30,882 nucleotides of DNA from a virus: IMG/VR virus record IMGVR_UViG_3300022074_000229, positions 1-30,882 of that record. One strand, written 5' to 3'. The translations under genes were made by a program, and so were the position numbers. Shown one piece after another: positions 343 to 19,565 of this stretch; position 1 is the first letter of the stretch, and each line of letters opens with the position of its first letter. The notes below the pieces were generated by a model. It was given only the letters and a program-made list of their open reading frames with translations. It had not been told where the DNA came from and did not search any database.

Positions 343-427
343 GTGATCACAAAAAAGCATACCCCTATGGATGTGATCACGAATTACACCTATACGATGC
401 ACATACACACATACAGTTTGTGATCAC
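343..427. promoter_or_regulatory. Three GTGATCAC palindromes (candidate operators or iterons)
   Basis: The perfect 8-bp palindrome GTGATCAC occurs at 343-350, 373-380 and 420-427. The first two also share the flanking AT on the left. Start-to-start spacing is 30 and 47 bases. Three identical palindromes in 85 bases of gene-free DNA fit cooperative repressor sites or an origin-binding protein. Each contains GATC, so adenine methylation could affect binding. No protein in the window can be assigned to them. The HTH protein at 5742 is one candidate. Confidence 0.55.
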
Positions 428-443
428 AAATATAGTAGAACAA

Positions 444-495
444 AATAAGAACAACCTAGATTTCCAGTACATAATAAGAACAAACAAATTTGTTT
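444..495. repeat. Direct repeat pair and 14-bp perfect palindrome
   Basis: An 11-base direct repeat, AATAAGAACAA, occurs at 444-454 and 473-483. The second copy runs into the perfect 14-bp palindrome AAACAAATTTGTTT at 482-495. The palindrome is AT-only at its centre and lies just upstream of a run of A and T (496-530). It could be a regulator site or an easily melted origin element. The function is unknown. Confidence 0.5.
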
Positions 496-522
496 TTGTT
501 TAAATTCAATAACTTATAAAAT
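496..522 (+). promoter_or_regulatory. Weak candidate promoter upstream of the structured RNA
   Basis: TTGTTT at 496-501 and TAAAAT at 517-522 resemble -35 and -10 boxes, with a short 15-base spacer. Transcription would begin near 530, directly before the hairpin-rich segment that starts at about 540. The surrounding DNA is so AT-rich that chance matches are likely. Confidence 0.2.
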
Positions 523-953
523 AATTTAAAAAACCTATTGCAATTCAAAAGATGTTCGGGTTAATGTAGATACATCGAAAGCGACAAGAAACAAAACGCA
601 AGCGATGTATATCCTTCAAAGTGTTTCAGCGTCCTTAAGACGGATACGGTGAAATGCCCTATCAAAACAGACTAACAAGACTAAACACATTACAGACTAA
701 CAAACGACTACAACTTAGAAAGAAACACAGACAACAGAATAACAGATATATAAGAAACAAACTTAAGACAGCTAGTATGCCTGATAGTATACTCATGATG
801 AACGTATGTTGCCGATTTCTCTTAATTGAGTGGGCTAACCTGTAAGGCCAGGACTGGTATATTTATGCCTGGCTATAGGGTGCTCTTAAAGGGTGGATAC
901 TATGCACAGTACATAGATGTGCACATGTTTGAGCTAACAGATTGTGACTATTC

Positions 954-1022
954 GGTTACACCCTGAGCTAAAATGAGCCAACTCATTCTTGCGCTATTGA
1001 CGCATGGGCTTAGGGTGTGACT
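954..1022 (+). promoter_or_regulatory. Three-way-junction RNA element
   Basis: The closing stem pairs 954-968 with 1008-1022. It is about 15 bp long with a few G-U pairs, and the core is ACACCCTGAGC against GCTTAGGGTGT. Inside are two hairpins: AATGAG-CCAA-CTCATT (972-987) and TGCG-CTATTGA-CGCA (990-1004). This compact geometry resembles regulatory or ligand-binding RNA elements. No known consensus is recognised. Confidence 0.55.
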
Positions 1023-1045
1023 TACTAAAGACAGTTGCTTTTTGT

Positions 1046-1079
1046 GGGTGCATCTGAAACCTCCCAAGTAGATGTACCC
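1046..1079 (+). promoter_or_regulatory. 10-bp hairpin upstream of the first early gene
   Basis: GGGTGCATCT (1046-1055) pairs with AGATGTACCC (1070-1079) with one G-U pair and a 14-base loop. There is no U-tract after it, so it is not an intrinsic terminator. It ends about 20 bases before the ribosome binding site of the gene at 1110 and could protect or regulate that message. Confidence 0.5.
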
Positions 1080-1109
1080 TCATGAAGTAACACAAACGGA
1101 GGAAAGACA

Positions 1110-1265
1110 ATGAACGTATACAAGACAAGTGATGGTTATACATTTTATCAACAATCAAGTGGTGTACTTACTGATACACCTGACATAAACGATTGCGATA
1201 TGATGTACCCCGATTTACGAACTTTAATGTTTGTTGATCCAGATACAGAAAAACAGGAGGTTTAA
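1110..1265 (+). CDS. Small unknown early phage protein, 51 aa
   Basis: Starts at ATG 1110 with a strong GGAGGA site 7 bases upstream and reads MNVYKTSDGY... to a stop at 1265. The protein is acidic, with several aromatic residues and a C-terminal EKQEV. Its last codons overlap the AGGAGG ribosome site of the next gene, which is typical of tightly packed phage operons. It is the first gene after the structured leader and therefore probably among the earliest expressed. No family is recognised. The strong start signal is the main reason to accept so short a gene. Confidence 0.7.
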   Translation: MNVYKTSDGYTFYQQSSGVLTDTPDINDCDMMYPDLRTLMFVDPDTEKQEV

Positions 1266-1267
1266 AC

Positions 1268-1465
1268 ATGGATGAAGAACGAGGAGCAGCGACAATAAAA
1301 GTGTACCTACTCAATGGTGCAATAACAGTACTGCATGGTGATACTGGAAAAGTATTACTAGAACGTGAAGCATCCAAAGGTGATTGGAACAGAATATGGG
1401 CAGCACTAGAAGGTGAATTACCCAGTGCAGATCCGTATCGTGCAGCATATTATGGAGAGGTGTAA
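1268..1465 (+). CDS. Unknown early protein, 65 aa
   Basis: Starts at ATG 1268 with AGGAGG about 7 bases upstream and ends 2 bases before the next gene. It is acidic. The sequence shows a short beta-like stretch (TIKVYLL and AITVLHG), then a helix with WNRIWAALEGEL. No catalytic motif or membrane segment is visible. Its place in the same closely spaced row of early genes suggests co-transcription with 1110 and 1468. The function is unknown. Confidence 0.75.
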   Translation: MDEERGAATIKVYLLNGAITVLHGDTGKVLLEREASKGDWNRIWAALEGELPSADPYRAAYYGEV

Positions 1466-1467
1466 AC

Positions 1468-2184
1468 ATGACATACAAACTATTAGGCGTAGGAACAAAC
1501 GCCAAGACAATCAAAGGTGATGGTAGTGAATACCTTACAGCTATACTTTACATGACACCGTGGAAAGTTATGGTTGATGGTAAAGCTTTCAACTCTTGCC
1601 CTATGGCAGAGCAAGCAAACTGTATTGACGCTTGTTTGTATACAGCAGGACGTGGTGCATTTAATAATGTGCAAGCTGCACGAATGCGTAAGACTGAATG
1701 GTATTACAAAGATCGTGAAAGCTTTATGCGTCAACTACATAAAGACGTTACCAAGTTTCAAGCTTATTGTGACAAGCGTGGCATACAGCCATGCGTTAGG
1801 TTGAACGGCACAACAGACATACGTTGGGAGACAGTCAAGCTAGATGGTCAAAATATCTTTGAGCTATTCCCATCTGTGCAATTCTACGACTACACCAAGA
1901 TTTCTAACAGAAAGACTAAGGACATATTCAACTATCACTTAACGTGGTCATACTCAGGTGCGAATATCCAGTATGCCGACAAGCTACAAGATGCACTCGA
2001 CAATGGTATGAATGCAGCGGTGGTATTTCGTAAAGAATACAAGCTACCCGAATGGCGTGGCATAAATGTGACAGACGGTGACAAAGATGATTTACGCTTT
2101 CTTGATCCTTGCAATTCAATTGTGGCGTTGTACGCTAAGGGCAAGGCTAAGAAAGATACAACAGGATTTGTAGTAGACATATAA
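1468..2184 (+). CDS. Conserved phage protein with Cys triad (DUF7227-like)
   Basis: A 238-aa protein preceded by GGAGAGG. From memory it resembles a phage family of unknown function (I believe DUF7227) with the pattern 'YLTAILYMTP...CPMA...C...CLYTAGRG...RMRKT...VRLNGT.D..WE'. Visible here are C44, C52 and C56 in a C-x7-C-x3-C arrangement, a conserved RMRKTEWYY helix, and VRLNGTTDIRWE near residues 110-121. The Cys triad followed by TAGRG could bind a metal or an iron-sulfur cluster, but that is inference. The length seems full and the frame is intact. It is the largest protein of the first early block. No activity can be assigned. Confidence 0.8.
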   Translation: MTYKLLGVGTNAKTIKGDGSEYLTAILYMTPWKVMVDGKAFNSCPMAEQANCIDACLYTAGRGAFNNVQAARMRKTEWYYKDRESFMRQLHKDVTKFQAYCDKRGIQPCVRLNGTTDIRWETVKLDGQNIFELFPSVQFYDYTKISNRKTKDIFNYHLTWSYSGANIQYADKLQDALDNGMNAAVVFRKEYKLPEWRGINVTDGDKDDLRFLDPCNSIVALYAKGKAKKDTTGFVVDI

Positions 2185-2197
2185 GGAGGAATTACAA

Positions 2198-2407
2198 ATG
2201 ATTACCAAAGATTCAATAGAAGCTTACAACAAACAATTTAAACAACTAATAGGATCAAATATACTGGACTTTAAAATGGTGCAATGTGAGTTTGATCCAC
2301 ATCAGTATTGGCCTACGTTCAAGATGCGATTGGGTGACCAAAGATACAAGCTTGTCTTGTCGCAAGATACAGAGGGCAATGGTGGTGGATTTGCTTTCAT
2401 AGAATAG
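2198..2407 (+). CDS. Unknown protein, 69 aa
   Basis: Starts at ATG 2198 behind AAGGAGGA, a near-perfect ribosome site. The sequence has an N-terminal helix and then a beta-rich half with the aromatic pattern HQYWPTFKMRLGDQRYKLVLSQ. It has no membrane segment and no recognised domain. It lies between two well-supported genes in the same operon and has no unusual composition. Confidence 0.75.
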   Translation: MITKDSIEAYNKQFKQLIGSNILDFKMVQCEFDPHQYWPTFKMRLGDQRYKLVLSQDTEGNGGGFAFIE

Positions 2408-2423
2408 AAACAGGAGAAAAAAT

Positions 2424-3323
2424 ATGACTATTAAAATATCATTAGAAACTATATCACCTCAGTATGCAGATACGCTACTAGAGACACACAACACAGACAA
2501 CTACAGGAAAGTAAAAGAAAAACAGGTAGATCTATACGCTAGTGTTATGGAGCGTGGCGAGTGGTTACCTGAAGCAAGTACTATTGTAATTGATAACAAT
2601 GGTGTACTGACTAATGGACAGCATAGACTGTTGGCTATACTCAGATCAGGCACAGCTATAGATATGATTATTGTACGCAATGCAGACCCAAGAAGTAGGT
2701 ATGTCATTGATGATCATATGCCTAGAAAAATGATGGATCATGTAGGGTGTGAGCAATACCATGTGTCTATGGTTAACACTTATCTAAGATCCAAAGGTAC
2801 TAATGTAGTGAGAGAATACAAAAAGAATGTAGACTTTTTCACATCCTTAATTGAGGGTGAGATGGGTAGACTAACTACAAAATTGAATGATCTACATGGG
2901 AGTTACAGAGATACCTTTACTAGCTACGGAATGAGGGCAGCACTGATACTTTCTGTACTTAGTGGTGAGATACTTGAGGAAGAAGCTATAGAGTTATTTC
3001 ATAAGCTAATAAGTTTTAGAAAAGCTAGAGATAAAAAGACAGGAGAGCTTAAGTATATTATGAATGCTAGTGTAAGAGCAGAAGCACAGAGAAATATGAC
3101 ACCTCTCATGTCTAAACTTATAGATATACTAGATGCAAATAATATACCAGTATACGATGGTAAGTTAAACAAGTGGGTTATTGATAAGTGGAGTGCGATT
3201 TGCCACCCATCGCCTAAGCTAATGTATGCAGCGTATCAAGCACTACACAGTGATACACGAGACAACACAGAGTTTAGTGGCTTCTTTGACCCAACAATAA
3301 CTAAAGTATTAGGATTGAACTAA
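2424..3323 (+). CDS. ParB/sulfiredoxin-fold-like phage protein
   Basis: A 299-aa protein behind CAGGAG. Residues about 25-95 carry the pattern seen in ParB-like N-terminal domains: a helix with predicted target positions, GEWLPEASTIVID, then GVLTNGQHRLLAILRSG (60-76). The core 'G.L.NGQHRL.A' corresponds to the ParB box with its nucleotide-binding Arg. The C-terminal half is helical with no recognised domain and lacks an obvious HTH. ParB-fold proteins in phages may be CTP-binding DNA proteins, nucleases or modification enzymes, and I cannot choose between these. The next gene starts on the last base of the stop codon, so the two are translationally coupled. Confidence 0.7.
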   Translation: MTIKISLETISPQYADTLLETHNTDNYRKVKEKQVDLYASVMERGEWLPEASTIVIDNNGVLTNGQHRLLAILRSGTAIDMIIVRNADPRSRYVIDDHMPRKMMDHVGCEQYHVSMVNTYLRSKGTNVVREYKKNVDFFTSLIEGEMGRLTTKLNDLHGSYRDTFTSYGMRAALILSVLSGEILEEEAIELFHKLISFRKARDKKTGELKYIMNASVRAEAQRNMTPLMSKLIDILDANNIPVYDGKLNKWVIDKWSAICHPSPKLMYAAYQALHSDTRDNTEFSGFFDPTITKVLGLN

Positions 3324-3544
3324 TGAAAGAATATAACTTCACATTAGCTAATGCTGTTGAGATTTGTGAACAGTCAGTGATGTCTGACATCGATGAAGAG
3401 ACAGCAGCATGGCAATATCTGATTGACACAGGTGTTGCGTGGCAATTGCAAGGGTGGTTTGGACGTACAGCTAAACGACTAATTGATGAGGGTTACTGTA
3501 CATATAAGGAGGAAGAACAATGCTTGAACAAGAGACATACATAA
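3323..3544 (+). CDS. Conserved small phage protein, 73 aa (DUF7417-like)
   Basis: The start codon overlaps the stop of the ParB-like gene (TAATG). The centre reads 'LIDTGVAWQLQGWFGRTAKRLIDEGYC', a pattern I recall from a recurrent phage family of unknown function, possibly DUF7417. It looks like two short helices around a GWFGR turn. The 3' end overlaps a further small gene by 25 bases. The function is unknown. The family assignment is from memory and tentative. Confidence 0.75.
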   Translation: MKEYNFTLANAVEICEQSVMSDIDEETAAWQYLIDTGVAWQLQGWFGRTAKRLIDEGYCTYKEEEQCLNKRHT

Positions 3545-3645
3545 TGACTGAACAAGAGATGGAAAACTTAATCAATGATGCATTCGGTGCAACGTTCTGG
3601 AAATACCTAGCGTTTGTATGGTCTGGATTAGAGGAGGACTATTAA
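3520..3645 (+). CDS. Very small protein, 41 aa
   Basis: ATG 3520 follows an excellent AAGGAGGA site (3507-3514) located inside the end of the upstream gene, and the frame runs to a TAA just before the next ATG at 3647. The peptide is acidic (MLEQETYIMTEQEMEN...) with an aromatic tail containing FWKYLAFVW. The tail is too short for a confident membrane helix. The strong ribosome site and exact fit between neighbours support it. The function is unknown. Confidence 0.6.
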   Translation: MLEQETYIMTEQEMENLINDAFGATFWKYLAFVWSGLEEDY

Positions 3646-3646
3646 A

Positions 3647-3925
3647 ATGGCTAACAAGAAACTAAAACTAAAACTAAATCGTGATGAAGTACTGGAACTA
3701 CTAGATGCGTACAACATCATGGATCAAATATGTACAGACTTTAGAGAGATGTTTGATACTGATCTTAGTAAGGTGCGTAAGTTGGAAAGCATGTCTATAA
3801 AACTAAAAGACATGTTTGACTTTAGACCCATAACAGATAGTGAGGGAGATCCTAATCATTGGCGTTCATACGTAATGCCTGATGATGATAGGGCATGGTA
3901 TCACACACCAAAGAAGGACAAATGA
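3647..3925 (+). CDS. Unknown charged protein, 92 aa
   Basis: Starts at ATG 3647 after GAGGAGG. The N-terminus is very lysine-rich (KKLKLKLNRDEV), followed by two amphipathic helices with LELLDAYNIMDQI and LSKVRKLESMSIKLKDMF, then a polar tail with HWRSYVMPDDDRAWYH. It is probably a small helical, possibly oligomeric protein. No domain is recognised. It ends 1 base before the next start. Confidence 0.7.
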   Translation: MANKKLKLKLNRDEVLELLDAYNIMDQICTDFREMFDTDLSKVRKLESMSIKLKDMFDFRPITDSEGDPNHWRSYVMPDDDRAWYHTPKKDK

Positions 3926-3926
3926 T

Positions 3927-4112
3927 ATGCAACTACAAGATTTATTCTTTAACAGACAGAAGATAGTTAACGTGGCACTTAGCTTCAAACAACTGGAAGT
4001 AGATGCAGTCTCTCCGTTTAACACTGAGGAGGAGAGACACTTAGCAGTAGATAAAATCTGTAAAGGCAATGTGATTATCAATCAACTAGAGGAGATACTG
4101 GATGCAGTATAG
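3927..4112 (+). CDS. Unknown helical protein, 61 aa
   Basis: The frame is open from 3882, but ATG 3927 is the better start because it follows AAGAAGGA and lies immediately after the previous stop. The protein is MQLQDLFFNRQKI..., mostly helical and amphipathic, ending in IINQLEEILDAV. It overlaps the next gene by 11 bases. No family is recognised. Confidence 0.65.
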   Translation: MQLQDLFFNRQKIVNVALSFKQLEVDAVSPFNTEEERHLAVDKICKGNVIINQLEEILDAV

Positions 4113-4275
4113 AAATATAGTGATAGCAGCGGAAGACTTTGGGTGTGATGAAATAGACACAATAGCAAAGATAATAGAGAATTACATTGAAGAGCTAGGA
4201 TTATCAGACTACGATAAACTATCAGGTTTTAGATGGAGGATAGATGTAAGTATGAGGTACGACAATGAAAGTTAG
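4102..4275 (+). CDS. Unknown acidic protein, 57 aa
   Basis: ATG 4102 follows GAGGAGA and overlaps the end of the previous gene. It reads MQYRNIVIAAEDFG... and stops with TAG at 4275, overlapping the next gene by 11 bases. The protein is acidic with a helix DTIAKIIENYIEELG. The paired overlaps on both sides and the good ribosome site support a real gene. No function can be assigned. Confidence 0.6.
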   Translation: MQYRNIVIAAEDFGCDEIDTIAKIIENYIEELGLSDYDKLSGFRWRIDVSMRYDNES

Positions 4276-4477
4276 GACATACCATAAGAACGGTAAAGCT
4301 GTACAGTTTTTAGGCTACAGTGACATCGATGCATCCAATGCAGCTAAGGTTGTCATGGGTGAGGTAGGAGATGTCGGATACTTCAAGCCAAGACTAGGCA
4401 CAGATGAATGGATATACGATTGGATATACAAAAAAGAAATAACGGATGAAGACTTACAGAGGGTGCTAGGCAGATGA
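4265..4477 (+). CDS. Unknown protein, 70 aa
   Basis: ATG 4265 lies within the end of the previous gene and follows GAGGTACGAC, a weak ribosome site, so translational coupling is likely. The protein reads MKVRTYHKNGKAVQFLGYSD..., a probable small alpha/beta fold with IYDWIYKKE and a C-terminal helix. Its stop overlaps the HNH gene start by 4 bases (ATGA). No family is recognised. Confidence 0.65.
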   Translation: MKVRTYHKNGKAVQFLGYSDIDASNAAKVVMGEVGDVGYFKPRLGTDEWIYDWIYKKEITDEDLQRVLGR

Positions 4478-5187
4478 AGACGTGCACTAAATGCGGAGAG
4501 GCTAAAGAGTTTAGTGAGTTTCATAAAGCTAATAAATTACCTGATGGCTATCAATACAACTGTAAGAGTTGCAAAAAATCTATGGCTGAAGATTGGTACT
4601 ATAACAAAGGAGGTAAACAAAAAAATAAAATAAGTGGTCAAAAGTATAAAGCTAGTAACAGAAAAAAAGTTAATGATAAAGCTAGGAAACAATATAAAAA
4701 ACATAGAATAAAAATACTTGAAAGATTAAAAATAAAAAGACAAGAAAACCCTGAGTGGAGGGAAGAATTATACGAAAAGACTAAATCATGGAGAGAAAAA
4801 AATAAAGAATATTTTAAAGAGTATATGAAAAAATATCATTCCAAACATTACCAAGACAATAAAGAAAAGTATTATGAAAGTTCAGTACAAAGAAAGGCTG
4901 TGAAATTAAATGCTATACCTAGTTATTTAAAAGATTGTAAAGTTGAAAAAAGAAGAATGCTAAACACTTACAAGTTAAGTATATCTATAACTAAAGCGAC
5001 AGGAACACAACATCATGTAGATCATATGTGGCCTTTAGCTGATGGAGGGCCGCATTGGAGTGGTAACTTACAGATCATAACGGCTGAAGAAAACTTGAGG
5101 AAACACGCTACAGTAGATCCTACTGTGAAGACAACGATACAAGATATGTTAATTGAAGAAGAGCAGATGCGTTATGCACAATATTAA
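4474..5187 (+). CDS. HNH endonuclease with N-terminal zinc ribbon
   Basis: A 237-aa protein. The N-terminus has a CxxC...CxxC zinc ribbon (C4, C7, C30, C33). Residues 45-145 form a lysine-rich, probably helical DNA-binding linker. The C-terminal HNH core reads HHVDHMWPL (180-188), then GGPH (191-194), NLQ (198-200) and N207. This is the usual pattern for phage HNH and homing-type nucleases that nick or cut DNA. Coding sequence is visibly richer in A than its neighbours (many AAA codons), so the gene may be a recent mobile insertion. It nevertheless overlaps the upstream gene by 4 bases. It could be a free-standing homing endonuclease or a host-genome-degrading enzyme. Confidence 0.85.
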   Translation: MKTCTKCGEAKEFSEFHKANKLPDGYQYNCKSCKKSMAEDWYYNKGGKQKNKISGQKYKASNRKKVNDKARKQYKKHRIKILERLKIKRQENPEWREELYEKTKSWREKNKEYFKEYMKKYHSKHYQDNKEKYYESSVQRKAVKLNAIPSYLKDCKVEKRRMLNTYKLSISITKATGTQHHVDHMWPLADGGPHWSGNLQIITAEENLRKHATVDPTVKTTIQDMLIEEEQMRYAQY

Positions 5188-5199
5188 GGAGACTACAAA

Positions 5200-5526
5200 A
5201 TGAGACTATACATGAACAAGCAAGGCGAGTGGGTAGGCACTCAGGCTGAGGCTAAGAAGATTAGTGCATCTATGGTTGATGTACCTGTGGACAAGCCTAA
5301 CCTACTCAAGTGGCTGAACACATTTACTGGTGCAATAGATGATGCAGCTAAGGAAGTAATGCAAGACAAGCCTAAACCTGGACGTGTGACACAAAAAGCA
5401 CACGCATGGGATACTATTATGCAGTGCGCTAAAAATGCTAGTATAAATGATTTAACTATGGCATTGATCGTGTACATGGATAGAGTGCAAGACATTGCAG
5501 ACAAACAGAAGGAGACACAGCAATGA
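5200..5526 (+). CDS. Unknown protein, 108 aa
   Basis: Starts at ATG 5200 after AAGGAGA. The N-terminus reads MRLYMNKQGEWVGTQAEAKK, followed by a helical C-terminal half. The N-terminal pattern, where a residue string about the product itself ends in 'GTQAEAKK', is reminiscent of small phage proteins that start with a beta-hairpin. No domain is recognised. The base composition is more GC-balanced than the HNH gene before it. It overlaps the next gene by 4 bases. Confidence 0.75.
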   Translation: MRLYMNKQGEWVGTQAEAKKISASMVDVPVDKPNLLKWLNTFTGAIDDAAKEVMQDKPKPGRVTQKAHAWDTIMQCAKNASINDLTMALIVYMDRVQDIADKQKETQQ

Positions 5527-5738
5527 ACTACAAGACATCACAAGGTGTAGAACTAGCAGACGATGGGTACACCAAGGTAACACAAAAGAAAAGTTTAGGG
5601 TACGGATGGGAAGCTACGTTGTACAACAATGACCGACTCGTACTCACACAAGATGCTACAGGAGAGACACTGAGCATACCACCAGAGTCTACGCAAACAC
5701 TGCGAGACATATTTAAATCTATTAATGAGGAGACATAG
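5523..5738 (+). CDS. Unknown protein, 71 aa
   Basis: Starts within the stop of the previous gene (ATGA overlap) behind AGGAGA. The sequence looks like a small all-beta domain (YTKVTQKK, WEATLYNNDRLVLTQD) followed by a short helix (TQTLRDIFKSI). It has no Cys and no membrane segment. It ends 3 bases before the HTH gene. The function is unknown. Confidence 0.7.
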   Translation: MNYKTSQGVELADDGYTKVTQKKSLGYGWEATLYNNDRLVLTQDATGETLSIPPESTQTLRDIFKSINEET

Positions 5739-5741
5739 ACA

Positions 5742-5957
5742 ATGGCTAACAATCAACTTAACACAATTATAAAACACCTTGAGACAGTAGGTAGTATATC
5801 AACTCTAGAGGCTATCATACAGTACAACATCATGGCGTTACCTAGACGTATCAAAGACCTTAAGGAGAAAGGGTATAACTTCAACAGCATACGCAAGTCA
5901 CACCCAGTGACAGGTCAACGCTACACACGTTATGTATTAGCAGAGGAAGCAGCGTAA
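5742..5957 (+). CDS. Small HTH DNA-binding protein
   Basis: A 71-aa protein with a winged-helix-like pattern. A first helix (NTIIKHLETVG) is followed by the HTH SISTLEAIIQYNIMALPRRI, then LKEKGYNF and a wing ending RYTRYVLAEE. This matches the small phage HTH domain I know as HTH_39. It probably binds DNA as an early regulator. The GTGATCAC repeats near the left end and the operator-like repeat at 19150 are possible targets, but nothing in the sequence links them. The next gene starts on the last base of its stop codon. Confidence 0.75.
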   Translation: MANNQLNTIIKHLETVGSISTLEAIIQYNIMALPRRIKDLKEKGYNFNSIRKSHPVTGQRYTRYVLAEEAA

Positions 5958-6130
5958 TGGTTTGGGCATTAGTATGGATGCAGTTACTAATCACATCGCA
6001 GACAGTGAAATACTTTCACGTTGATACATTTGATAGTAAAGAAGAATGCGTTGCAGCTATGAGCCAAGCTGCTGTGTTAGTATCAAACAAGAGTGAGACA
6101 CTAGCATGTCTAGAGCTACAAGTAGAGTAG
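5957..6130 (+). CDS. Small exported or membrane-anchored protein, 57 aa
   Basis: ATG 5957 overlaps the preceding stop (TAATG). The N-terminus is a short hydrophobic segment (MVWALVWMQLLI) that may act as a signal or anchor. It is followed by a soluble part with TFDSKEECVAAM and a second Cys in LACLEL. The same layout, a hydrophobic start, then an acidic-Cys helix, then a late Cys, recurs in the protein at 19368, so the two may be distant paralogues with a disulfide. The function is unknown. An envelope location would be consistent with a superinfection or host-modifying role, but that is inference. Confidence 0.6.
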   Translation: MVWALVWMQLLITSQTVKYFHVDTFDSKEECVAAMSQAAVLVSNKSETLACLELQVE

Positions 6131-6135
6131 TTATC

Positions 6136-6246
6136 ATGCAGCGCAAGAAGAAATGGGTAGCGTATGATGAGGATGGCTATGTTCTTGTCATATGCAGAAA
6201 CAAAAGAATAGTAGAGAACTTTGTTAAAAAGAGGAGGAAGAAATGA
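6136..6246 (+). CDS. Very small basic peptide, 36 aa
   Basis: An open frame from ATG 6136 reads MQRKKKWVAYDEDGYVLVIC... and ends RRKK, overlapping the next start by 4 bases (ATGA). An in-frame upstream ATG at 6106 would give 46 aa but has no good ribosome site. The peptide has a basic-beta-basic pattern. The fit between its neighbours supports it, but its size and weak ribosome site leave doubt. Confidence 0.45.
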   Translation: MQRKKKWVAYDEDGYVLVICRNKRIVENFVKKRRKK

Positions 6247-7028
6247 AAGTCATAGCGTGGTGGAGTGCAGGTGTAACAAGTGCAGTAGCTACTAAGTTAG
6301 CCATTGATGAATACGGTATAGATAATGTTGAACCTATATACTTTGCCATTGATAGTGCTCATGACGATAATAAAAGATTCAAAGAACAGTGTGAAGATTG
6401 GTATGGGAAGGAGATAAGAGTAGACAGAGCACCTAAACACAAAGATCAGTTCGAGGTTATACTAAAAGATAAGTATGTAAATGGTCCTGGCGGTGCAAGA
6501 TGTACACTTGTTCTAAAGAAGATGGTAAGGCAAAGGATAGAAAGAAACGAAGAGTACAGTGCTCAAGTGTTTGGCTTTGAGTATACAAAAAAGGAAGTAA
6601 ACAGAGCTATACGTTTTCAAGAGCAGTACCCTGATGCAAAACCTATCTTCCCTTTGATAGAACAAAGGATGGATAAACCTGCCTCTCTATACTACCTTGA
6701 GAAGCAAGGAATAAGAAGACCTAAAATGTATGAGCTAGGTTATGGTAACAATAATTGCATTGGCTGTGTCAAAGGTGGCATGGGATACTGGAACAAGATA
6801 AGAATAGATTTTCCTGAGTCATTTGATAAGATGGCTAGGGCAGAAAGAGAGGTGGGTAATAGCTGTATCAGAGGAATATTCTTGGATGAACTAGATCCAA
6901 ACGCAGGACGCAAACAAAAGATGATCATGCCTGATTGTGGTAACTTTTGTGACATAGAGTTTGGAGAAGTATTACATCCTAGATTAGATGAAGTATATAA
7001 AGAACCAGTACAACTTAAATTATTATAG
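6243..7028 (+). CDS. PAPS-reductase-like PP-loop phage enzyme
   Basis: A 261-aa protein behind GAGGAGG. The N-terminus has a PP-loop (WWSAGVTSAVATKLA, residues 6-20), the ATP-binding signature of the adenine nucleotide alpha-hydrolase superfamily. The family pattern continues with GGARCTLVLKK (C87), VFGFEYT, NNNCIGCVKGGMGYWNKIR (C172, C175), IFLDELDP, and C232/C236 near the end. From memory it belongs to the common phage 'PAPS reductase family' whose substrate is unknown. The four C-terminal Cys could bind a metal or iron-sulfur cluster. Real PAPS reductases use an ECGLH motif, absent here, so a role in sulfur assimilation is doubtful. Sulfur transfer, thiolation or nucleotide modification is more likely, but unproven. 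Confidence 0.8.
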   Translation: MKVIAWWSAGVTSAVATKLAIDEYGIDNVEPIYFAIDSAHDDNKRFKEQCEDWYGKEIRVDRAPKHKDQFEVILKDKYVNGPGGARCTLVLKKMVRQRIERNEEYSAQVFGFEYTKKEVNRAIRFQEQYPDAKPIFPLIEQRMDKPASLYYLEKQGIRRPKMYELGYGNNNCIGCVKGGMGYWNKIRIDFPESFDKMARAEREVGNSCIRGIFLDELDPNAGRKQKMIMPDCGNFCDIEFGEVLHPRLDEVYKEPVQLKLL

Positions 7029-7038
7029 AGGAGGTAGT

Positions 7039-7248
7039 ATGTATTACGCACTAGACATATACAGTAAGACAACAAAGAAGATGTTTGCTTATCATTCAAG
7101 CGACAGCCGTAAGGATATATTGCATTTAAAAAAGATGTATGATACGAATGAGTTTGTTTACATCAAGGAGTGTTTTGGAGAGACAGATGAAGACAAAGAA
7201 ATATACAGAGAGTCTTCCAAATATGGAGGAACCACAGTTGCCAGTTAG
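7039..7248 (+). CDS. Unknown protein, 69 aa
   Basis: The frame is open from 6988, but ATG 7039 follows a strong GAGGAGG and lies after the previous stop, so it is the likely start. The protein is polar, with YHSSDSRKDILHLKKMYDTNEFVYIKE and an acidic stretch. Such short 'alpha/beta with aromatic strand' proteins are common in phage early regions. The 3' end overlaps the next gene by about 60 bases. No family is recognised. Confidence 0.6.
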   Translation: MYYALDIYSKTTKKMFAYHSSDSRKDILHLKKMYDTNEFVYIKECFGETDEDKEIYRESSKYGGTTVAS

Positions 7249-7393
7249 TATGCTACAACATATGGAGCAGATGGGTTTACTGCCTGTCTCCCATGATGAT
7301 GATGGAGTAAACAATATAGATTTACCCTGGAGAAGTAACACAAATTATTTCAGGAGAGATGTATTGGATGAGAGAGGAGAGCCATTGTTCTAA
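7187..7393 (+). CDS. Unknown protein, 68 aa
   Basis: The frame runs from 7139, but ATG 7187 has GGAG 7 bases upstream and gives MKTKKYTESLPN.... A later ATG at 7223 is also possible. The C-terminal half is polar with DDDGVNNIDLPW and RRDVLDERGEPLF, an extended tail typical of small phage proteins. The next gene begins on its stop codon. Start position uncertain, function unknown. Confidence 0.5.
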   Translation: MKTKKYTESLPNMEEPQLPVSMLQHMEQMGLLPVSHDDDGVNNIDLPWRSNTNYFRRDVLDERGEPLF

Positions 7394-7500
7394 TGTATAA
7401 GATACCTATAGTAATAATCGTAGTTTACCTACTCGCATTCGTGTGGTTCGTGTATGACACGTACAAAGGTGAAGACGATGGAAGGAACAGAAGAAGATGA
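7393..7500 (+). CDS. Single-pass membrane peptide, 35 aa
   Basis: ATG 7393 overlaps the preceding stop (TAATG). Residues 4-21 (IPIVIIVVYLLAFVWFVY) form one clear transmembrane helix, followed by a charged tail ending GRNRRR. The positive tail predicts a cytoplasmic C-terminus. Small membrane peptides of this kind are frequent in phage early regions and may act on host membrane proteins. No family can be named. Confidence 0.6.
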   Translation: MYKIPIVIIVVYLLAFVWFVYDTYKGEDDGRNRRR

Positions 7501-7503
7501 CAC

Positions 7504-7770
7504 ATGATAATGATGAGGCACATGAGAAAGACGATCCCCATGATGACATTACTGACAGTCTTGGGAATCTACCTAAAGAGAATACTGACAGCAATGAGTG
7601 TCCTGATAAACGTGATACTAGGAGGACAAAACAATCAGACGTTCAGCGCAAGGAATCACCAGTGGCAGAAAGAGGGAAAGCCTAACGTAGTTTATTTCAT
7701 TGACATGCTTATTGGCAAAGGTCATTGTGTAGAAGCGTGGGTATATTGGAAAGTGAGGAGAAAATGGTAG
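7504..7770 (+). CDS. Conserved phage membrane-associated protein, 88 aa
   Basis: The frame gives a short hydrophobic segment (MMTLLTVLGIYLKRIL and SVLINVILGG) followed by NQTFSARNHQWQKEGKPNVVYFIDMLIGKGHCVEAWVYW. From memory, similar proteins with '...LGG..NQTLSAR..' and a Cys-Trp end are common in phages, and their function is unknown. Several ATGs (7504, 7510, 7513, 7522) could be the start and none has a strong ribosome site. The end overlaps the integrase start by 7 bases. A competing frame (7497-7685) is low-complexity and less convincing. Confidence 0.65.
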   Translation: MIMMRHMRKTIPMMTLLTVLGIYLKRILTAMSVLINVILGGQNNQTFSARNHQWQKEGKPNVVYFIDMLIGKGHCVEAWVYWKVRRKW

Positions 7771-8681
7771 ACATACCTAAACATACATCGAAGCTATCAG
7801 CTATTGTAGACTTTTATCTGCACAGTAGTAGCTTCTGTAGTCTAAGTCCTAAGTCTCAGAAAGACTATGAGACACACCTGGATGTAATACTAAAGACTAA
7901 AGTAGAAGGTAGACTCTTAGGTAACTACACAGTGCGTAGCATCAAAGCTAGACACACTAACCTAGCGTATGAGAAGTGGCTTGTGTCTGGTGTACGTACT
8001 GCTAACTATCGTAAGGCTATCTTGTCTGCTGCATGGAAGTACAGCTTGAGGTTAGACGTAATGGATAATGACCCAGTACGTTTGATCAAGACGAAGAGCA
8101 CTAAGCCACGCAAGGTCAAGTGGACTCGTGAACAAGTGTTACTGTTTCTTGATACAGCATATGGTAACTTCAGGTGGCGTAGCATTGGGTTGATTGTACA
8201 TATGGCATATGAGTGGGCGCAGCGTGTTGGAGACATGCGTACCTTGACTTGGGACAACATTAACTTCAGCGCACAACGTATTGATTTAACACAAAGTAAA
8301 CGTGGTGCTGATGTGCACCTACCTATACCTGATGATCTACTATCTATGCTTAGACAACAGAGCCAGGACTTTGGATTCCAAAACTACGTAGCACCTAAGA
8401 CTACACCAGTAGCAGGGGCGTATGTACCTTACGCAATTGACCACATCGATGATGCAATCAACGAAGTCAAAGAGGCTGCAGGACTACCAAAGAAACTAAC
8501 AGCTATGGATCTACGTAGGACAGCAATCACTGAGATGGTAGAGGCAGGTGTTGAGACTCTTGAGTTGATGCAAGTGACAGGTCACAGGAATCCTGAGTCA
8601 GTCAAGCCATATCTGGTCAACACATTTAGTGGTGCAAGTAATGCGTTAAGCAAACGGAGGAGCAAAGATGACCAACATTAA
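7764..8681 (+). CDS. int: Tyrosine recombinase (phage integrase)
   Basis: The best start is ATG 7764, behind GTGAGGAG, giving 305 aa. It has an N-terminal SAM-like DNA-binding domain (about 1-110) and a C-terminal catalytic domain. Catalytic residues that can be placed are R154 (AQRVGDMRTL), K179 (TQSKRG), R251 (MDLRRT), H274 (TGHRNPES) and the nucleophile Y283 (KPYL). The first position of the usual HxxR box is Met (M248), so one of the canonical residues is replaced. The enzyme should insert the phage into the host chromosome and probably excise it. Being embedded between an early membrane gene and the primase, it is transcribed with the replication genes. No attP or tRNA fragment was recognised near it. 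Confidence 0.9.
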   Translation: MVDIPKHTSKLSAIVDFYLHSSSFCSLSPKSQKDYETHLDVILKTKVEGRLLGNYTVRSIKARHTNLAYEKWLVSGVRTANYRKAILSAAWKYSLRLDVMDNDPVRLIKTKSTKPRKVKWTREQVLLFLDTAYGNFRWRSIGLIVHMAYEWAQRVGDMRTLTWDNINFSAQRIDLTQSKRGADVHLPIPDDLLSMLRQQSQDFGFQNYVAPKTTPVAGAYVPYAIDHIDDAINEVKEAAGLPKKLTAMDLRRTAITEMVEAGVETLELMQVTGHRNPESVKPYLVNTFSGASNALSKRRSKDDQH

Positions 8682-9456
8682 GAACTACTTGGAGTCGCTT
8701 GATTTAAAAGAAGAATACAAACACAGAGGTGACTGCCCTAAGTGCAAAGGCAAGAACACATTCACTGCTATACGAGATGGTAGTGCGCTGTTGTACAACT
8801 GTTATAAGCTTGACTGTAATACCAAAGGTGTAGTGTCATCAGGCATGACAGCAAGAGAGATACAGCGTAAGCTCAAAGGGTATGAAGAACCTGAATCTGA
8901 GCACGAGACATTCACTTGGCCTGAGTATGTAGTGACACCTACTGCAGAACACAGAGATCACGAAAGGTTTATAGGTAGGTGGGGCTTGTATGGTGAAGAC
9001 TTGATGTACGATGTAATGGATGGACGTGTAGTGTTTCCTATCTATGACAGAGGCAGATTAGTAGGAGCTATAGGTAGATGTACATCCTATACAGGACAGG
9101 TTAAGTGGAGGCGTTACGATAGGACACCTACTGTATTCACTCGTGTCGTTGGTAAACCTAGTGGTGTCGTAATGATAGTAGAAGATGTCATCAGTGCAAC
9201 TGTAGCAGCTAAACTATTTCCAGGCTTAACAGGTCTAGCTATACTGGGTACATCATTCAGTGTATCTAATATGCAACACTTAGATAATTTTTACAAAGTT
9301 ATAGTAGCATTAGATCCTGACGCTGCATATAAAACACTAGAGTACAAGAGAGAGATAGAGGCTTACACAGGGTTAGAGACTATAGCGTTGAGACTCTATG
9401 ATGATATTAAATATAAAGTAGAAGCAGACATTAAAAAACTAGAGGAGATAGTTTAA
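8668..9456 (+). CDS. DNA primase with zinc finger and Toprim domain
   Basis: A 262-aa protein resembling the primase half of T7 gp4. The N-terminal zinc finger uses C23, C26, C45 and C50 (CPKC...CYKLDC). The Toprim fold has E172 (VMIVEDVIS) and D216/D218 (VALDPDAA), the acid residues that hold catalytic metal. It lacks the helicase part, which is supplied separately by the gene at 10188. It makes RNA primers at the replication fork. It overlaps the integrase by 14 bases and is followed at once by a small membrane-protein gene. Confidence 0.9.
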   Translation: MTNIKNYLESLDLKEEYKHRGDCPKCKGKNTFTAIRDGSALLYNCYKLDCNTKGVVSSGMTAREIQRKLKGYEEPESEHETFTWPEYVVTPTAEHRDHERFIGRWGLYGEDLMYDVMDGRVVFPIYDRGRLVGAIGRCTSYTGQVKWRRYDRTPTVFTRVVGKPSGVVMIVEDVISATVAAKLFPGLTGLAILGTSFSVSNMQHLDNFYKVIVALDPDAAYKTLEYKREIEAYTGLETIALRLYDDIKYKVEADIKKLEEIV

Positions 9457-9650
9457 TGACACCAAGTGAAGAAGCAGAGTTAGAAGCAAAGCTAACATAC
9501 GAAGCGTTTATCAAGTGGGTAAAGGTTACCTTCTACTGGATAATGGCAATGTTATTAGTACTAGCGTACTTTAACTTTGGAGTAGATAACAAAACAGGTA
9601 GTCAGTACAACGGTGCAGTATACGCACCCAAGAATGTAGGAGACAAGTAA
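9456..9650 (+). CDS. Small single-pass membrane protein, 64 aa
   Basis: Starts on the last base of the primase stop codon, behind GAGGAG. An acidic N-terminal helix (EEAELEAKLTYEAFIKW) precedes one transmembrane segment (about 24-42, FYWIMAMLLVLAYFNFGV), then a polar tail. The placement among replication genes suggests a role in anchoring or host takeover, but no family is recognised. It abuts the next gene at 9650. Confidence 0.65.
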   Translation: MTPSEEAELEAKLTYEAFIKWVKVTFYWIMAMLLVLAYFNFGVDNKTGSQYNGAVYAPKNVGDK

Positions 9651-9865
9651 TGCAACCAAAGAATGTACCATGCCATATCCGTATCAAGGTAGAGCCGACA
9701 CAGCAGCAGAAAGGTAGAGCCTGTCGATTACACGGTAAAGACTTCAAGAGTATAGCTGATGCAGCTAGGCACTGGAATGTGAACTACTCGTGGGCAGCAG
9801 AACAAGTTAGTAAAGGGTGGAACAAAGAAGGTTTCCCTCAAAAGTATAGGAAGAGTTATGTCTGA
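9650..9865 (+). CDS. Small basic protein with HTH-like motif, 71 aa
   Basis: Starts at the end of the preceding gene. The middle reads HGKDFKSIADAARHWNV and then SWAAEQVSKGW, a helix-turn-helix-like arrangement similar to NUMOD1-type DNA-binding modules of phage nucleases. The protein is basic with two N-terminal Cys. It probably binds DNA without a catalytic domain. It overlaps the next gene by 8 bases. Assignment is from pattern only. Confidence 0.6.
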   Translation: MQPKNVPCHIRIKVEPTQQQKGRACRLHGKDFKSIADAARHWNVNYSWAAEQVSKGWNKEGFPQKYRKSYV

Positions 9866-10007
9866 ACAATACTGTACAACAAAAGGTTTAGGGTGGGCAT
9901 TCTTAACGTGTGCATTTCTTATAGTGGGTGTGCCTGTACTGATGTGGTTAGCCTTAGAGGGTAGCAGTTGGTACGAAACATTTAGTATGATGAATCCAAT
10001 GTGGTGA
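9858..10007 (+). CDS. Small membrane peptide, 49 aa
   Basis: ATG 9858 overlaps the preceding gene and follows AGGAAGAG, a fair ribosome site. Residues 12-33 (GWAFLTCAFLIVGVPVLMWLAL) form one transmembrane helix, followed by a short aromatic polar tail. It is one of several tiny membrane peptides in this rightward block. The function is unknown. Confidence 0.55.
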   Translation: MSEQYCTTKGLGWAFLTCAFLIVGVPVLMWLALEGSSWYETFSMMNPMW

Positions 10008-10011
10008 TGAT

Positions 10012-10173
10012 ATGAAGAAGACAACAATAATAGATGAACGTGTACCACTAGGTAAAGTTTACGTTGACTTGACAGTAGATGAAGTGTTAGAGGCATGTAA
10101 GAGGTATGCTTCAGATAAAGCTTTTGATGAAGAGTTAGCTAGGGTATACAACAAGGAGACAAGTTTTGATTGA
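10012..10173 (+). CDS. Unknown protein, 53 aa
   Basis: ATG 10012 follows GGTGATGATAT, a weak ribosome site, directly after the membrane peptide. The protein is MKKTTIIDERVPLGK..., with a strand-helix pattern and the helix VDEVLEACKRYASDKAFDEE. The TGA at 10171-10173 lies just before the helicase ribosome site. No family is recognised. The weak start lowers confidence. Confidence 0.5.
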   Translation: MKKTTIIDERVPLGKVYVDLTVDEVLEACKRYASDKAFDEELARVYNKETSFD

Positions 10174-10187
10174 GAGAGGAGATACAC

Positions 10188-11417
10188 ATGATGGAACTAG
10201 CATTAATCCGTACTATGTTGGACAAAGAGTTCTACGATAACCACAAGGGTATACGTTGTCCAGATAAGATATTCAGTAAGGATGCACGTAAGATTAAGCA
10301 GACGCTTGACTACGCTATGGATACATACGGTAAAAACATTACACCCACAGAGTTAGAGTCTCTGTTCTTTGTTAACAATACCAGTATGACTACAGCTAAC
10401 AAGCTAGTCTTTAGTGATTTGTTTCAAAAGGTTGCACGAGAGAAACCACTATCTACAGAGATAGCTGATGATGTATTGTCTAAGTTATTTCAACAGGTAG
10501 TAGGTGAAGAGATTGCTAACCTTGGTTTTGATTACGTCAATGGATCACAGTCTAGCTTAGAGCCTTTGAGAAACATACTGAGTAACTATCAAGATGATTT
10601 CCTACCCAACCTCAAGGTAGAGTGGGATGATACAAGTATTGATACACTACTAAAAGCCAACGACATACAATCACAATGGAAGTGGAACATACCTACGCTT
10701 AGACGTAAGACAGAAGGTATCAGCGCAGGACACCTAGTTGTTGTAGGTGCTAGACCTAACACAGGTAAGACTAGCTTTCATGCTAGTACAATAGCTGCGC
10801 CTGATGGCTTTGCTTCACAGGGTGCTAAGTGTATGGTGCTGTGTAATGAAGAAAGCTATGAACGTGTAGGTGCAAGATACCTTAGTGCCGCTACAAGTAT
10901 GAGCATGGATGAAGTTAAGACTAACATGGCGGTGGCTGCATTACGTTACGATCCAATAGAGAAGAACGTCTTTATCAAAGACAGCACAGGTAAAGACATG
11001 GCATGGGTTGAGGCTATCATCAAAGCATACGAGCCTGACATTGTAGTGCTTGATATGGGTGACAAGTTTGCATCGAAGACAAGTGATAAGTCGGACATCT
11101 ATCTTAAGGAAGCAGCCATACATGCACGTAACATATCTAAGGAACACAAGTGTGCAATCATATGGATGTCACAGTTGAGTGCAGCAGCAGAAGGTTTGGT
11201 ACATCCTGATCAGTCAATGCTTGAAGGTAGCCGTACTGGTAAAGCAGCCGAAGCTGACTTGATGATTCTTATTTCAAAGAACAAGGTGGTTGAAGGACAA
11301 GATGAAGAAGAAAGCAGTCAAAGACATCTTTGTATAGCCAAGAACAAACTCAAGGGTGGATGGCATGGTACTATTCACTGTGAGTTAGATGGTGATAGGA
11401 GTCAGTACTTAGCATGA
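10188..11417 (+). CDS. Replicative DNA helicase, DnaB/gp4-helicase type
   Basis: A TTG at 10170 would also be in frame, but ATG 10188 has GAGAGGAG at ideal distance and gives 409 aa. The N-terminal ~165 residues look like a helical interaction domain. The RecA-like core has Walker A GARPNTGKTS (187-196), a Walker B DIVVLDMGD, then SQLSAAAEG and GSRTGKAAEAD typical of the DnaB family (H3/H4 region). It should form a hexamer that unwinds DNA on the lagging strand and recruit the separate primase at 8668. The polymerase starts within its stop (ATGA overlap), so both are made together. No bacterial DnaB loader gene is seen. Confidence 0.9.
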   Translation: MMELALIRTMLDKEFYDNHKGIRCPDKIFSKDARKIKQTLDYAMDTYGKNITPTELESLFFVNNTSMTTANKLVFSDLFQKVAREKPLSTEIADDVLSKLFQQVVGEEIANLGFDYVNGSQSSLEPLRNILSNYQDDFLPNLKVEWDDTSIDTLLKANDIQSQWKWNIPTLRRKTEGISAGHLVVVGARPNTGKTSFHASTIAAPDGFASQGAKCMVLCNEESYERVGARYLSAATSMSMDEVKTNMAVAALRYDPIEKNVFIKDSTGKDMAWVEAIIKAYEPDIVVLDMGDKFASKTSDKSDIYLKEAAIHARNISKEHKCAIIWMSQLSAAAEGLVHPDQSMLEGSRTGKAAEADLMILISKNKVVEGQDEEESSQRHLCIAKNKLKGGWHGTIHCELDGDRSQYLA

Positions 11418-13462
11418 GACTTGTAGTTGATGTAGAAAACACAATCACCAAACGAGAGAAGAAGAACATCCTTGATCCGTTTGAACCTGGACTTGAGCTT
11501 GTACAAGTAGGTATGCAGAATGTAGACAACCCTGATGAGACATACCTGTTCACGCTTAATCATAAAGAAGATCAAGATGTTGGTGGCTCAAGGGCTATGA
11601 ACATTCAGCTTATACTGGATAACACAACGCTCTTGATCATGCACAATGCACAGCATGACTTGATGTGGCTGTGGGAATCAGGCTTCAAGTATGACGGTGA
11701 CATCTATGACACGATGTTAGCTGAGTATTTGTTACAGCGTGGGCAGAAAGAACCTATAAGCTTAGAAGTTTGCGCTGAACGTAGGAATTTAAACTATCAG
11801 AAGCAAGACACTCTCAAGGAGTATTACAAGAAAGGATACAACACCAATGAGATACCTTTACAAGAGCTTCTTTTTTATCTTAGGAGTGACCTCGACATTA
11901 CTCGTGAGTTGTACTTTGCCTTGGAACAAGACTACGCACAGCCAGAAGCAGAGTCCTTACATAGAGTTAAAGACATTACCTTCCGCACCTGTAAAGCCCT
12001 CACCAGAATGTATATGTCAGGAATCCGTGTGGACAGAACCGCCCTTCAGCAGGTCCGACTAGAGTTTGAGAAAGAGAAAGCTGAGATAGAGGACAGGCTA
12101 CAACGTAAGACTCGTAAGCTTATGGGTGACACACCAGTTAATCTCAATAGCCCTGAGCAAGTATCTCAAGTTATCTTTAGCAGACGTGTGCACAACAAAA
12201 AAGAATGGGCTGACTTGTTTGACTACACTGAGACACAGCAAGAGTTTAGAGAAGCTATAGAAGCAAACAGTACTATCGTTAGAAAAACTAAAGCTAGTAC
12301 TTGCCCTGATTGTAATGGGCGTGGCTTAGTACACAAGCTGCGTAAGGATGGTACACTTTACAAGCTACCAACTAAATGTAAGCCATGTGACAGTAGAGGT
12401 TATCTACTAACTAAAACTAAAGAGGTGGCAGGTTTATGTTTCTCTGCACCAAGTAAGAAATGGATAAGTGCAAATGGTTTTAGTACTAGTAAGGGCAACC
12501 TTGAAAGTCTTATGGCTACCGCTACAAGCAACGGCATGGAGTCTGCTCTTGATTTCCTTACTGACCTTAAGCGTCTGTCTGCTATTAGCAGTTACCTTAG
12601 TAGCTTCGTGGATGGTATCGACATATATACCAAGCCAGACGGATTCTTACACGTTAACCTTACCCAAAGTGTTACCAGTACAGGTAGATTTTCTGGACGC
12701 AATCCCAACATGCAAAACATGCCAAGAGGAGGAACATTCCCAGTGAAGCGTGTGTTCATATCACGATGGGAGGGTGGACAGATAATGGAATGTGACTTTG
12801 CTCAATTGGAGTTCAGAGTTGCTGCATTCCTCTCACAGGACAGCACAGCCATGCAGGAGATAGATACAGGGTTTGATGTGCACTCCTACACTGCAAAGGT
12901 TATCAGTGATGCAGGACAGCCTACAGCCAGGCAAGCAGCAAAGGAACATACCTTCGCCCCACTCTTCGGAGCTACAGGGTATGGTAGATCAAAGGCTGTA
13001 GCTGCATACTACAAGCACTTCAATGAGAAGTACAAAGGTGTAGCTAAGTGGCACAAGAAGTTAGGTGATGAAGCCATGAGGTTTCTTAAGATAACTAACG
13101 TGAGTGGTAGACAGTATGCGTTTCCTGATGTGACTCGTAGGAGTAATGGTAACGTATCACACTTCACTATGATAAAGAACTACCCTGTCCAAGGATTTGC
13201 TACAGGTGACATCGTGCCTGTTGTACTACTAGAGTTCGAGCGATTGCTTGAGCCTTTACATTCATGCCTAGTCAATACGGTACACGATTCAATGGTGATA
13301 GATGTACACCCTGATGAAGTAAAAAAAGTTTTGACTATAGTGGATACTATTAACTCTAATCTAAACTGTGTTATAAAAGACGCATACGATGTAGAAATGA
13401 ATGTGCCTTTATTATTAGAAGCTAAAATAGGAAAGAATTGGCTTGACACAGTTGACGTTTAG
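11414..13462 (+). CDS. polA: DNA polymerase A with inserted DnaJ-like zinc finger
   Basis: A 682-aa family-A DNA polymerase. Exonuclease motifs: DVE (D6, E8), HNAQHD (D82), and YLRSD (Y155, D159), the DEDDy arrangement. Polymerase motif A is CDFAQLEFR (D461), B is AAKEHTFAPLFGATGYG (K510-G524), C is VHDSM (H624, D625). Between exo and pol, residues about 297-329 carry C297-x2-C300-x-G-x-G and C322-x2-C325-x-x-x-G, two halves of a DnaJ central-domain zinc finger. A similar insertion was, as I recall, reported in the HMO-2011 phage polymerase. It should copy both strands with proofreading. No thioredoxin-binding loop of the T7 kind was recognised. Confidence 0.93.
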   Translation: MRLVVDVENTITKREKKNILDPFEPGLELVQVGMQNVDNPDETYLFTLNHKEDQDVGGSRAMNIQLILDNTTLLIMHNAQHDLMWLWESGFKYDGDIYDTMLAEYLLQRGQKEPISLEVCAERRNLNYQKQDTLKEYYKKGYNTNEIPLQELLFYLRSDLDITRELYFALEQDYAQPEAESLHRVKDITFRTCKALTRMYMSGIRVDRTALQQVRLEFEKEKAEIEDRLQRKTRKLMGDTPVNLNSPEQVSQVIFSRRVHNKKEWADLFDYTETQQEFREAIEANSTIVRKTKASTCPDCNGRGLVHKLRKDGTLYKLPTKCKPCDSRGYLLTKTKEVAGLCFSAPSKKWISANGFSTSKGNLESLMATATSNGMESALDFLTDLKRLSAISSYLSSFVDGIDIYTKPDGFLHVNLTQSVTSTGRFSGRNPNMQNMPRGGTFPVKRVFISRWEGGQIMECDFAQLEFRVAAFLSQDSTAMQEIDTGFDVHSYTAKVISDAGQPTARQAAKEHTFAPLFGATGYGRSKAVAAYYKHFNEKYKGVAKWHKKLGDEAMRFLKITNVSGRQYAFPDVTRRSNGNVSHFTMIKNYPVQGFATGDIVPVVLLEFERLLEPLHSCLVNTVHDSMVIDVHPDEVKKVLTIVDTINSNLNCVIKDAYDVEMNVPLLLEAKIGKNWLDTVDV

Positions 13463-13470
13463 GGTATAAC
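13443..13470 (+). promoter_or_regulatory. Strong sigma70-like promoter before the 13507 gene
   Basis: TTGACA at 13443-13448 is a perfect -35 box and TATAAC at 13465-13470 is a near-perfect -10, separated by 16 bases. The -35 lies inside the last codons of the polymerase gene. Transcription would start near 13477 and pass AAAGGAAG before ATG 13507. Extra transcription here fits the need for much ssDNA-binding protein, if the next gene is one. Confidence 0.55.
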
Positions 13471-13506
13471 TAACCATCTTTAACTTTAAAAGGAAGTAAG
13501 TAAAAC

Positions 13507-18670: not shown

Positions 18671-18673
18671 TGA

Positions 18674-19159: not shown

Positions 19160-19174
19160 ATACTGTGCTACAAT
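19146..19174 (+). promoter_or_regulatory. Promoter with embedded operator for the 19201-19772 cassette
   Basis: TAGACA (19146-19151) and TACAAT (19169-19174) each match the sigma70 boxes in 5 of 6 positions with exactly 17 bases between them. The inverted repeat CACAGT-N6-ACTGTG (19150-19167) fills the spacer, so a dimeric repressor bound there would block RNA polymerase. Transcription would start near 19181, leaving a 20-base leader with AAAGGAG. The -35 overlaps the end of the previous gene. Confidence 0.6.
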
Positions 19175-19559: not shown

Positions 19560-19565
19560 CCAAGT

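Follow-up and report, generated by a model that had tools for sequence, protein, structure and literature searches.

A conserved structured RNA predicted to lead the early operon of a phage near the HMO-2011-type marine phages

The IMG/VR record IMGVR_UViG_3300022074_000229, analyzed here over all of its 30,882 bases (hereafter, the window), carries a hairpin-rich segment (positions 540-1085) ahead of its early genes. The original prediction took this segment for an undescribed phage RNA, either a regulatory leader or an independent non-coding RNA. Is it conserved as an RNA, where does it begin and end, and what could it do at this position?

The early operon and its promoter

The window encodes a family A DNA polymerase with a DnaJ-like insert, a DnaB-like helicase, a ribonucleotide reductase and an integrase, and shows local similarity to the roseophages CRP-2 and CRP-603. 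Judging from this gene set and the similarity to the CRP phages, we place it, as a phage fragment, near the HMO-2011-type marine phages, which count among the dominant viral groups in the sea and whose definition includes two CXXCXGXG motifs (PMC9038755). One CXXCXGXG and one further CXXC were found in the window, and the Pfam DnaJ_CXXCXGXG profile matches the DNA polymerase insert at 291-333 with a score under the cut-off.

The early genes occupy the plus strand from 1110 to about 19,772, forming an operon of ~18.6 kb, and the genes beyond 19,772 are on the minus strand, so that the segment indeed lies immediately before the early operon. The first cistron (1098-1265, plus strand) comprises a Shine-Dalgarno sequence GGAGG (1098-1102) and an ORF (1110-1265) with its ATG at 1110. 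Where the two gene groups converge, a GC-rich hairpin flanked on either side by a T-tail (19773-19791) is probably a bidirectional terminator, the only strong one detected in 400-20000; no strong intrinsic terminator was found in the early operon upstream of 19773. The minus strand (19794-30643) encodes large proteins of 1169, 633 and 1002 aa that match neither PHROGs nor Pfam and are probably virion proteins.

A sigma70-like early promoter is predicted on the plus strand (538-567), with the -35 box TTGCAA (538-543), an 18-base spacer and a -10-like TAATGT (562-567). The position profile of 72 homologues contains the -35 TTGCAA, TG at -15/-14, A at -11 and T at -7 relative to ATCG, and a start-like TACATCG aligns ahead of the 5' element (see below) across these homologues. 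The predicted transcript should begin at about 572-574. The start of the segment thus moves to about 572, position 540 being within the -35 box.

The conserved AT-rich stretch upstream of the promoter includes CAATAACTTA (507-516, plus strand; WATCAANNNNTTR type), which we take to be an IHF-like site of putative function and which is kept in many relatives 66-81 bases before ATCG. Also upstream of the promoter are three operator-like TGTGATCAC palindromes (342-351, 372-380 and 417-430), possibly sites for a phage repressor; the one at 417-430 is a perfect TTTGTGATCACAAA, and a similar TTTGTGATCACAAA occurs in the same region of CRP-2. In other loci (L091, L087, L111, L117, L118, L136 and L151), TTGACA recurs ahead of the early genes with a palindrome (GGTAGGC...GCCTACTCTCTGG) behind it and a spacer of varying length; this arrangement may represent a promoter with a built-in operator or an RNA hairpin.

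The gene-free leader and its covarying elements

The plus strand of 540-1085 folds at -142.6 compared to -124.7 +/- 6.0 for dinucleotide shuffles (z = -3.0), none of the 100 being as good, whereas the minus strand is within the shuffle range (z = -1.2), which bears out the hairpin-rich character of the segment. For its parts, assessed with mononucleotide shuffles, z was -3.1 (570-665), -0.8 (766-950), -5.0 (930-1040) and -3.5 (1040-1085), and no structure was found in the A-rich linker (666-765). A coding origin of the segment was rejected because the sole notable ORF (654-845) is not kept in relatives: its ATG is replaced with ACG or AAG in L005, L008 and L237, and the frame stops at once in L158. 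The segment thus remains without a supported gene, as initially described. The first ribosome-bound ORF of the relatives usually lies 250-540 nt past the 5' element. Overall, ~572-1085 is predicted, from sequence comparison, to be the gene-free leader of the early operon.

Homologues were collected through the protein of ORF 1468-2184 (Pfam GP88), which yielded 80 viral loci with two blocks recurring upstream, and through pattern scans of the viral collection, which yielded 84, 56 and 39 loci. Covariation, the check suggested together with the original prediction, was found in the homologues of both elements.

The downstream element (model R1; 955-1021, plus strand) is a 3-way junction composed of P1 (955-968/1008-1021), P2 (972-977/982-987) and P3 (991-993/1001-1003), with the junction and loop letters UAA (J1/2), CCAA (L2), CUU (J2/3), UUGA (within L3) and AUGG (J3/1). 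The same plan, with a 14-bp P1, a 6-bp P2 and a P3 of 2-3 bp, is common to 46 distinct sequences, a set selected by the loop letters and by the formation of 14 or more of the 20 P1 and P2 pairs. UAA, CCAA, CUU and UUGA are invariant, AUGG nearly so, and the stems are variable. In this set, 98.5% of the cells pair, compared to 72.9% after shuffling and 28-48% with slid partners; double changes are seen in 23 of the 24 pairs, and there are 236 compensatory cells versus 55 in shuffled sequences. The G-U pairs noticed earlier in the stems are real, accounting for 125 of 1050 cells (12% of paired cells), on the plus strand only; because such pairs become A-C mismatches on the other strand, the structure belongs to the plus-strand RNA. 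R1 matches 52 loci at E ~1e-18 or better, and the sources searched yielded no other match at E of 1 or below; divergent members were later found at 24-46 bits. In relatives, the junction is closed by an outer stem, P0 (933-1036, plus strand), which is weak and imperfect in the window; in a swap test, the helices of own pairs were longer than those of swapped ones (0 of 2000 permutations).

The suggestion that repeated AGGGTG (877, 890 and 1012) competes for a single CACCCT (959), so that the RNA could switch folds, fared differently in its two parts. The motifs are present, and CACCCT at 959 pairs with AGGGTG at 1012 inside the conserved 14-bp P1. The switch itself is not supported, as in 42 homologues the P1 strands are no more complementary to the sequence upstream than in shuffles (5.6 vs 5.7 and 8.0 vs 7.9).

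The 5' element (model R2; 574-664, plus strand, 91 nt) combines a long irregular hairpin (579-636), consisting of the AAGCGAC/GUCCUU closing stem, P2 and the arm AAG-C-GAU-GUAU-AUC-CUU, with the covariation-supported hairpin H4, GAUA-CGGUGAAAUGCCC-UAUC (~644-664). In the main survey, R2 matches 81 distinct loci; further ones were found outside it. The arm within P2 is of at least three types. Among the 17 sequences of the window's arm type, 96.5% of the cells are paired, and double changes occur in 11 of 25 pairs. Double changes were found in 23 of 25 pairs in the fitted alignment A4 (52 distinct sequences), a count favorable to the fold because an alignment fitted with a covariance model leans toward structure. 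For type-B arms, the support comes only via A4, MAFFT having misplaced the stems and RNAalifold having detected no covariation. The leaders of the closest relatives (L005, L008, L158, L237 and L213) are similar to that of the window except for the arm, which is of another type; this points to arm exchange.

Two other folds of the 5' region were discarded: the lowest-energy hairpin ATACATCG/CGATGTAT is not conserved, the relatives supporting the other fold, and the small hairpins UCG-AAAG-CGA and GUC...GAC were superseded by the long-range stem found with RNAalifold. A second, partial match to the 5' element, scoring 26.5 bits (E 0.008), was detected in L267 (4755-4802 and 5429-5522) and L274 (3502-3549 and 4176-4269), ~670 bases downstream of the first one and on the same strand.

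The 5' element is followed on the plus strand by an unstructured, G-poor linker (665-770) that is 56% A and contains GACTAA-like repeats (48% A and 15% G in relatives), and by a central domain (771-950) that is specific to the window's group and has few homologues. This domain includes the stem GCCAGG/CCUGGC (848-873 region) and a hairpin (~902-927) that has a different stem in L005. It also contains the boxA-like UGCUCUUAAA (881-890, plus strand); such letters were found in 5 of 64 leaders versus 0.2 expected, all five from the window's own group, a confinement that speaks against boxA/Nus as a general explanation. Past the junction, a terminal hairpin of 10-11 bp (1044-1082, plus strand) exposes the loop ACCUCCCAA, which is complementary to GGAGG at 1098-1102; in all six close relatives, the stem changes retain pairing and the loop is invariant.

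Distribution and comparison with known RNAs

Both elements are present in 32 loci of the main survey, in constant order and on the same strand, separated by 86-375 nt (median 266). Among 12 larger records, 10 contain exactly one 5' element and 6 exactly one 3-way junction, none having two, and genomes of 48-57 kb carry at most one copy of each element. Across 43 loci, the first start codon follows P1 at a median distance of 31 nt, with 32 of them falling in the range of 22-35 nt; in the window, 88 nt separate the two. The first genes after the junction in the 43 loci fall into 20 clusters without mutual similarity, indicating that the RNA belongs to the operon start rather than to one gene.

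In Paracoccus phage ParMal1, a member of Autographiviridae that encodes an RNA polymerase of its own, the 5' element was also identified, occupying the gap ahead of the early genes (39.6 bits, E 1.8e-6); the element heads the early region there, so the shared feature would be an early region that the host polymerase must read. A blastn search of the leaders against phage records produced no credible match outside Paracoccus phages. Neither R1 nor R2 matches the cultured relative CRP-2, and the 5' element was not found in bacterial genomes. Ten matches to the 3-way junction pattern in bacterial genomes were dismissed: none had a significant model score and most were in coding frames, six of them HsdM-like. 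In L017, L176, L179, L199 and L206, the 5' element is absent or cut down and a short ORF lies directly behind the same promoter, so the element is dispensable in some phages; some of these loci retain the 3-way junction further downstream.

Searches against Rfam 15, at gathering and permissive thresholds, yielded no match in the window, and none in 480-1120 at E up to 5, which, together with the strong covariation in homologues, upholds the view of an undescribed phage RNA. A match of L028 to an lncRNA family (14 bits) was set aside as due to chance. No description of such an RNA was encountered in the open-access literature, nor anything on transcription control in the literature on HMO-2011-type phages found here; the words noncoding, intergenic, promoter and RNA polymerase are absent from PMC9038755. 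The RNA is likely novel, within the incomplete coverage of this literature search.

Several known RNAs invite comparison. The leader resembles GOLLD and ROOL in being multi-domain, non-coding and phage-borne, but it is part of an operon leader, and a large RNA of this kind, proposed earlier as one option, is excluded at the level of Rfam, which gave no match in the window. The 3-way junction shares the P1-P2-P3 layout and a possible L2-L3 contact with purine-type riboswitches, but its junction letters (UAA/CUU/AUGG) and loops are unlike theirs, it is not tied to one gene, and it lacks an Rfam match; the conserved junction nucleotides of the purine riboswitch are replaced here by different invariant letters. 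With the nut sites of phage lambda (boxA-boxB), the common features are the position in the early leader and, in the window's group, UGCUCUUAAA, although boxA-like letters are found here in only the 5 of 64 leaders noted above.

The closest parallel is with the put RNA of phage HK022. The putL RNA, ~70 nt with two stem-loops just downstream of PL, exerts its effect over 10 kb via the zinc-binding domain of the polymerase (PMC9378689). Here, too, two adjacent hairpins (579-636 and ~644-664; ~70-90 nt in the comparison) directly follow a predicted early promoter read by the host polymerase. HK022, however, has two copies, whereas the window has one, inside a 500-nt multi-domain leader. The likeness is one of position and gross shape.

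Possible roles of the leader and competing explanations

That ~572-1085 is a conserved structured RNA is, in our assessment, nearly certain. The opposite possibility, that the hairpins arose by chance in an AT-rich intergenic region, could draw on the folding energy, which alone is only moderately unusual (z -3), but is refuted by the covariation over 46 (3-way junction) and 52 (5' element) distinct sequences and by the covariance models, which match a single site per locus at E-values between 1e-18 and 1e-23. It is also highly improbable that the conserved blocks are DNA-level signals, with TTGAC in L3 serving as a -35 box, the letters past P1 as a -10 box, and the palindromes as operators. 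TTGAC[AG] is present in most 3-way junctions, and related leaders have TTGACA followed by a palindrome; however, three helices covary while the loops stay fixed, G-U pairs make up their 12% share on the plus strand only, and the -10-like letters are weak, with a spacing of 18-19 or worse.

The RNA would arise by transcription from the host-type sigma70 promoter and lead the single early operon. Sequence comparison shows it to be modular, consisting of the 5' element (a long irregular hairpin with an exchangeable arm, then a second hairpin), an unstructured linker, a group-specific central domain and the 3-way junction. We consider it probable that this early leader is produced and works in cis, presumably at the onset of infection: both elements covary, with G-U pairs on the plus strand; their order and strand are constant, and their spacing similar, in 32 loci; and the conserved promoter ends just before the 5' element. 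The carriers share the start of an early region, not a gene product, which favors a cis role at the operon level. A free non-coding RNA of ~450-500 nt, cut from the mRNA or ending before it and targeting a host factor in trans during early infection, appears unlikely. Such an RNA would fit with the many domains, the 5' end set by its own promoter, the absence of a tie to one gene, and the long irregular P0-P1 helix, which ends about 20-30 nt before the start codon; the 3' end would then be marked or made by the 3-way junction and P0, which could, for instance, provide a site for processing. Yet no intrinsic terminator follows and the structure runs to the ribosome binding site, so that, of the two options left by the original prediction, the regulatory leader fits better, and the tight spacing between junction and start codon (the median of 31 nt) suggests a role in cis. 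Similarly, we doubt that the junction is a ligand- or protein-binding switch for the first cistron, in which a contact between L2 CAA and L3 UUG may form. The invariant UAA, CCAA, CUU and UUGA and the nearly invariant AUGG amid variable stems, the proximity to the start codon, and the complementarity between loop and Shine-Dalgarno sequence in the window's group are compatible with a switch, but the 20 unrelated clusters of first genes, the lack of an Rfam match and the absence of alternative P1 pairing beyond chance argue against it.

Within the cis-acting leader, the 5' element may bind the host RNA polymerase during elongation, or a host factor associated with it, and render the polymerase resistant to pausing and termination across the ~18.6-kb early operon, as put RNA does in HK022, where no protein factors are needed and the beta' zinc-binding domain is involved. 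By analogy, such action is a tentative possibility that we hold to be somewhat doubtful. Because no strong intrinsic terminator precedes 19773, Rho or pauses would need to be the targets of antitermination. Against it stand the single copy here, compared to two in HK022, and the dispensability of the element in L017, L176, L179, L199 and L206, as well as its absence in CRP-2. Downstream, the 3-way junction might set ribosome access to the first cistron or its processing; in the window, the CCUCC loop of the terminal hairpin could pair with the Shine-Dalgarno GGAGG and help to set this access or processing, the invariance of the loop making translation control also plausible. For the favored proposal as a whole, a sigma70-made, cis-acting leader with a put-like 5' element and downstream elements for translation or processing, we regard the evidence as evenly balanced.

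In any case, two or more covarying RNA motifs absent from Rfam head early operons, one of them shared with a cultured Paracoccus phage of Autographiviridae. These motifs offer an entry to early gene control in HMO-2011-type phages, and other viromes can already be annotated with the covariance models. A broader reading, in which modular leaders with exchangeable arms in unrelated phage families of marine alphaproteobacteria reprogram the host polymerase on their own where the early operon begins, and constitute a second, independently evolved class of protein-free RNA antiterminators besides put, is speculative and rather unlikely at present.

Some leaders contain additional pieces. That of L163 ends in a hairpin resembling an intrinsic terminator (GGGCG...CGCCCTTTTT) just before the first gene, a feature that the others lack. 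In L016, L087, L091, L138, L179, L196 and L254-L288, a third conserved piece, ACGGUGACUUGAAUCA-GCCCGUC (also written CGGUGACUUGAAUCA-CCCGUC), is located between the 5' element and the first gene, and lies between the two elements in other phages. It shows a compensatory change in L196, and its letters resemble hairpin H4 of the 5' element, so that it is perhaps a duplicated site.
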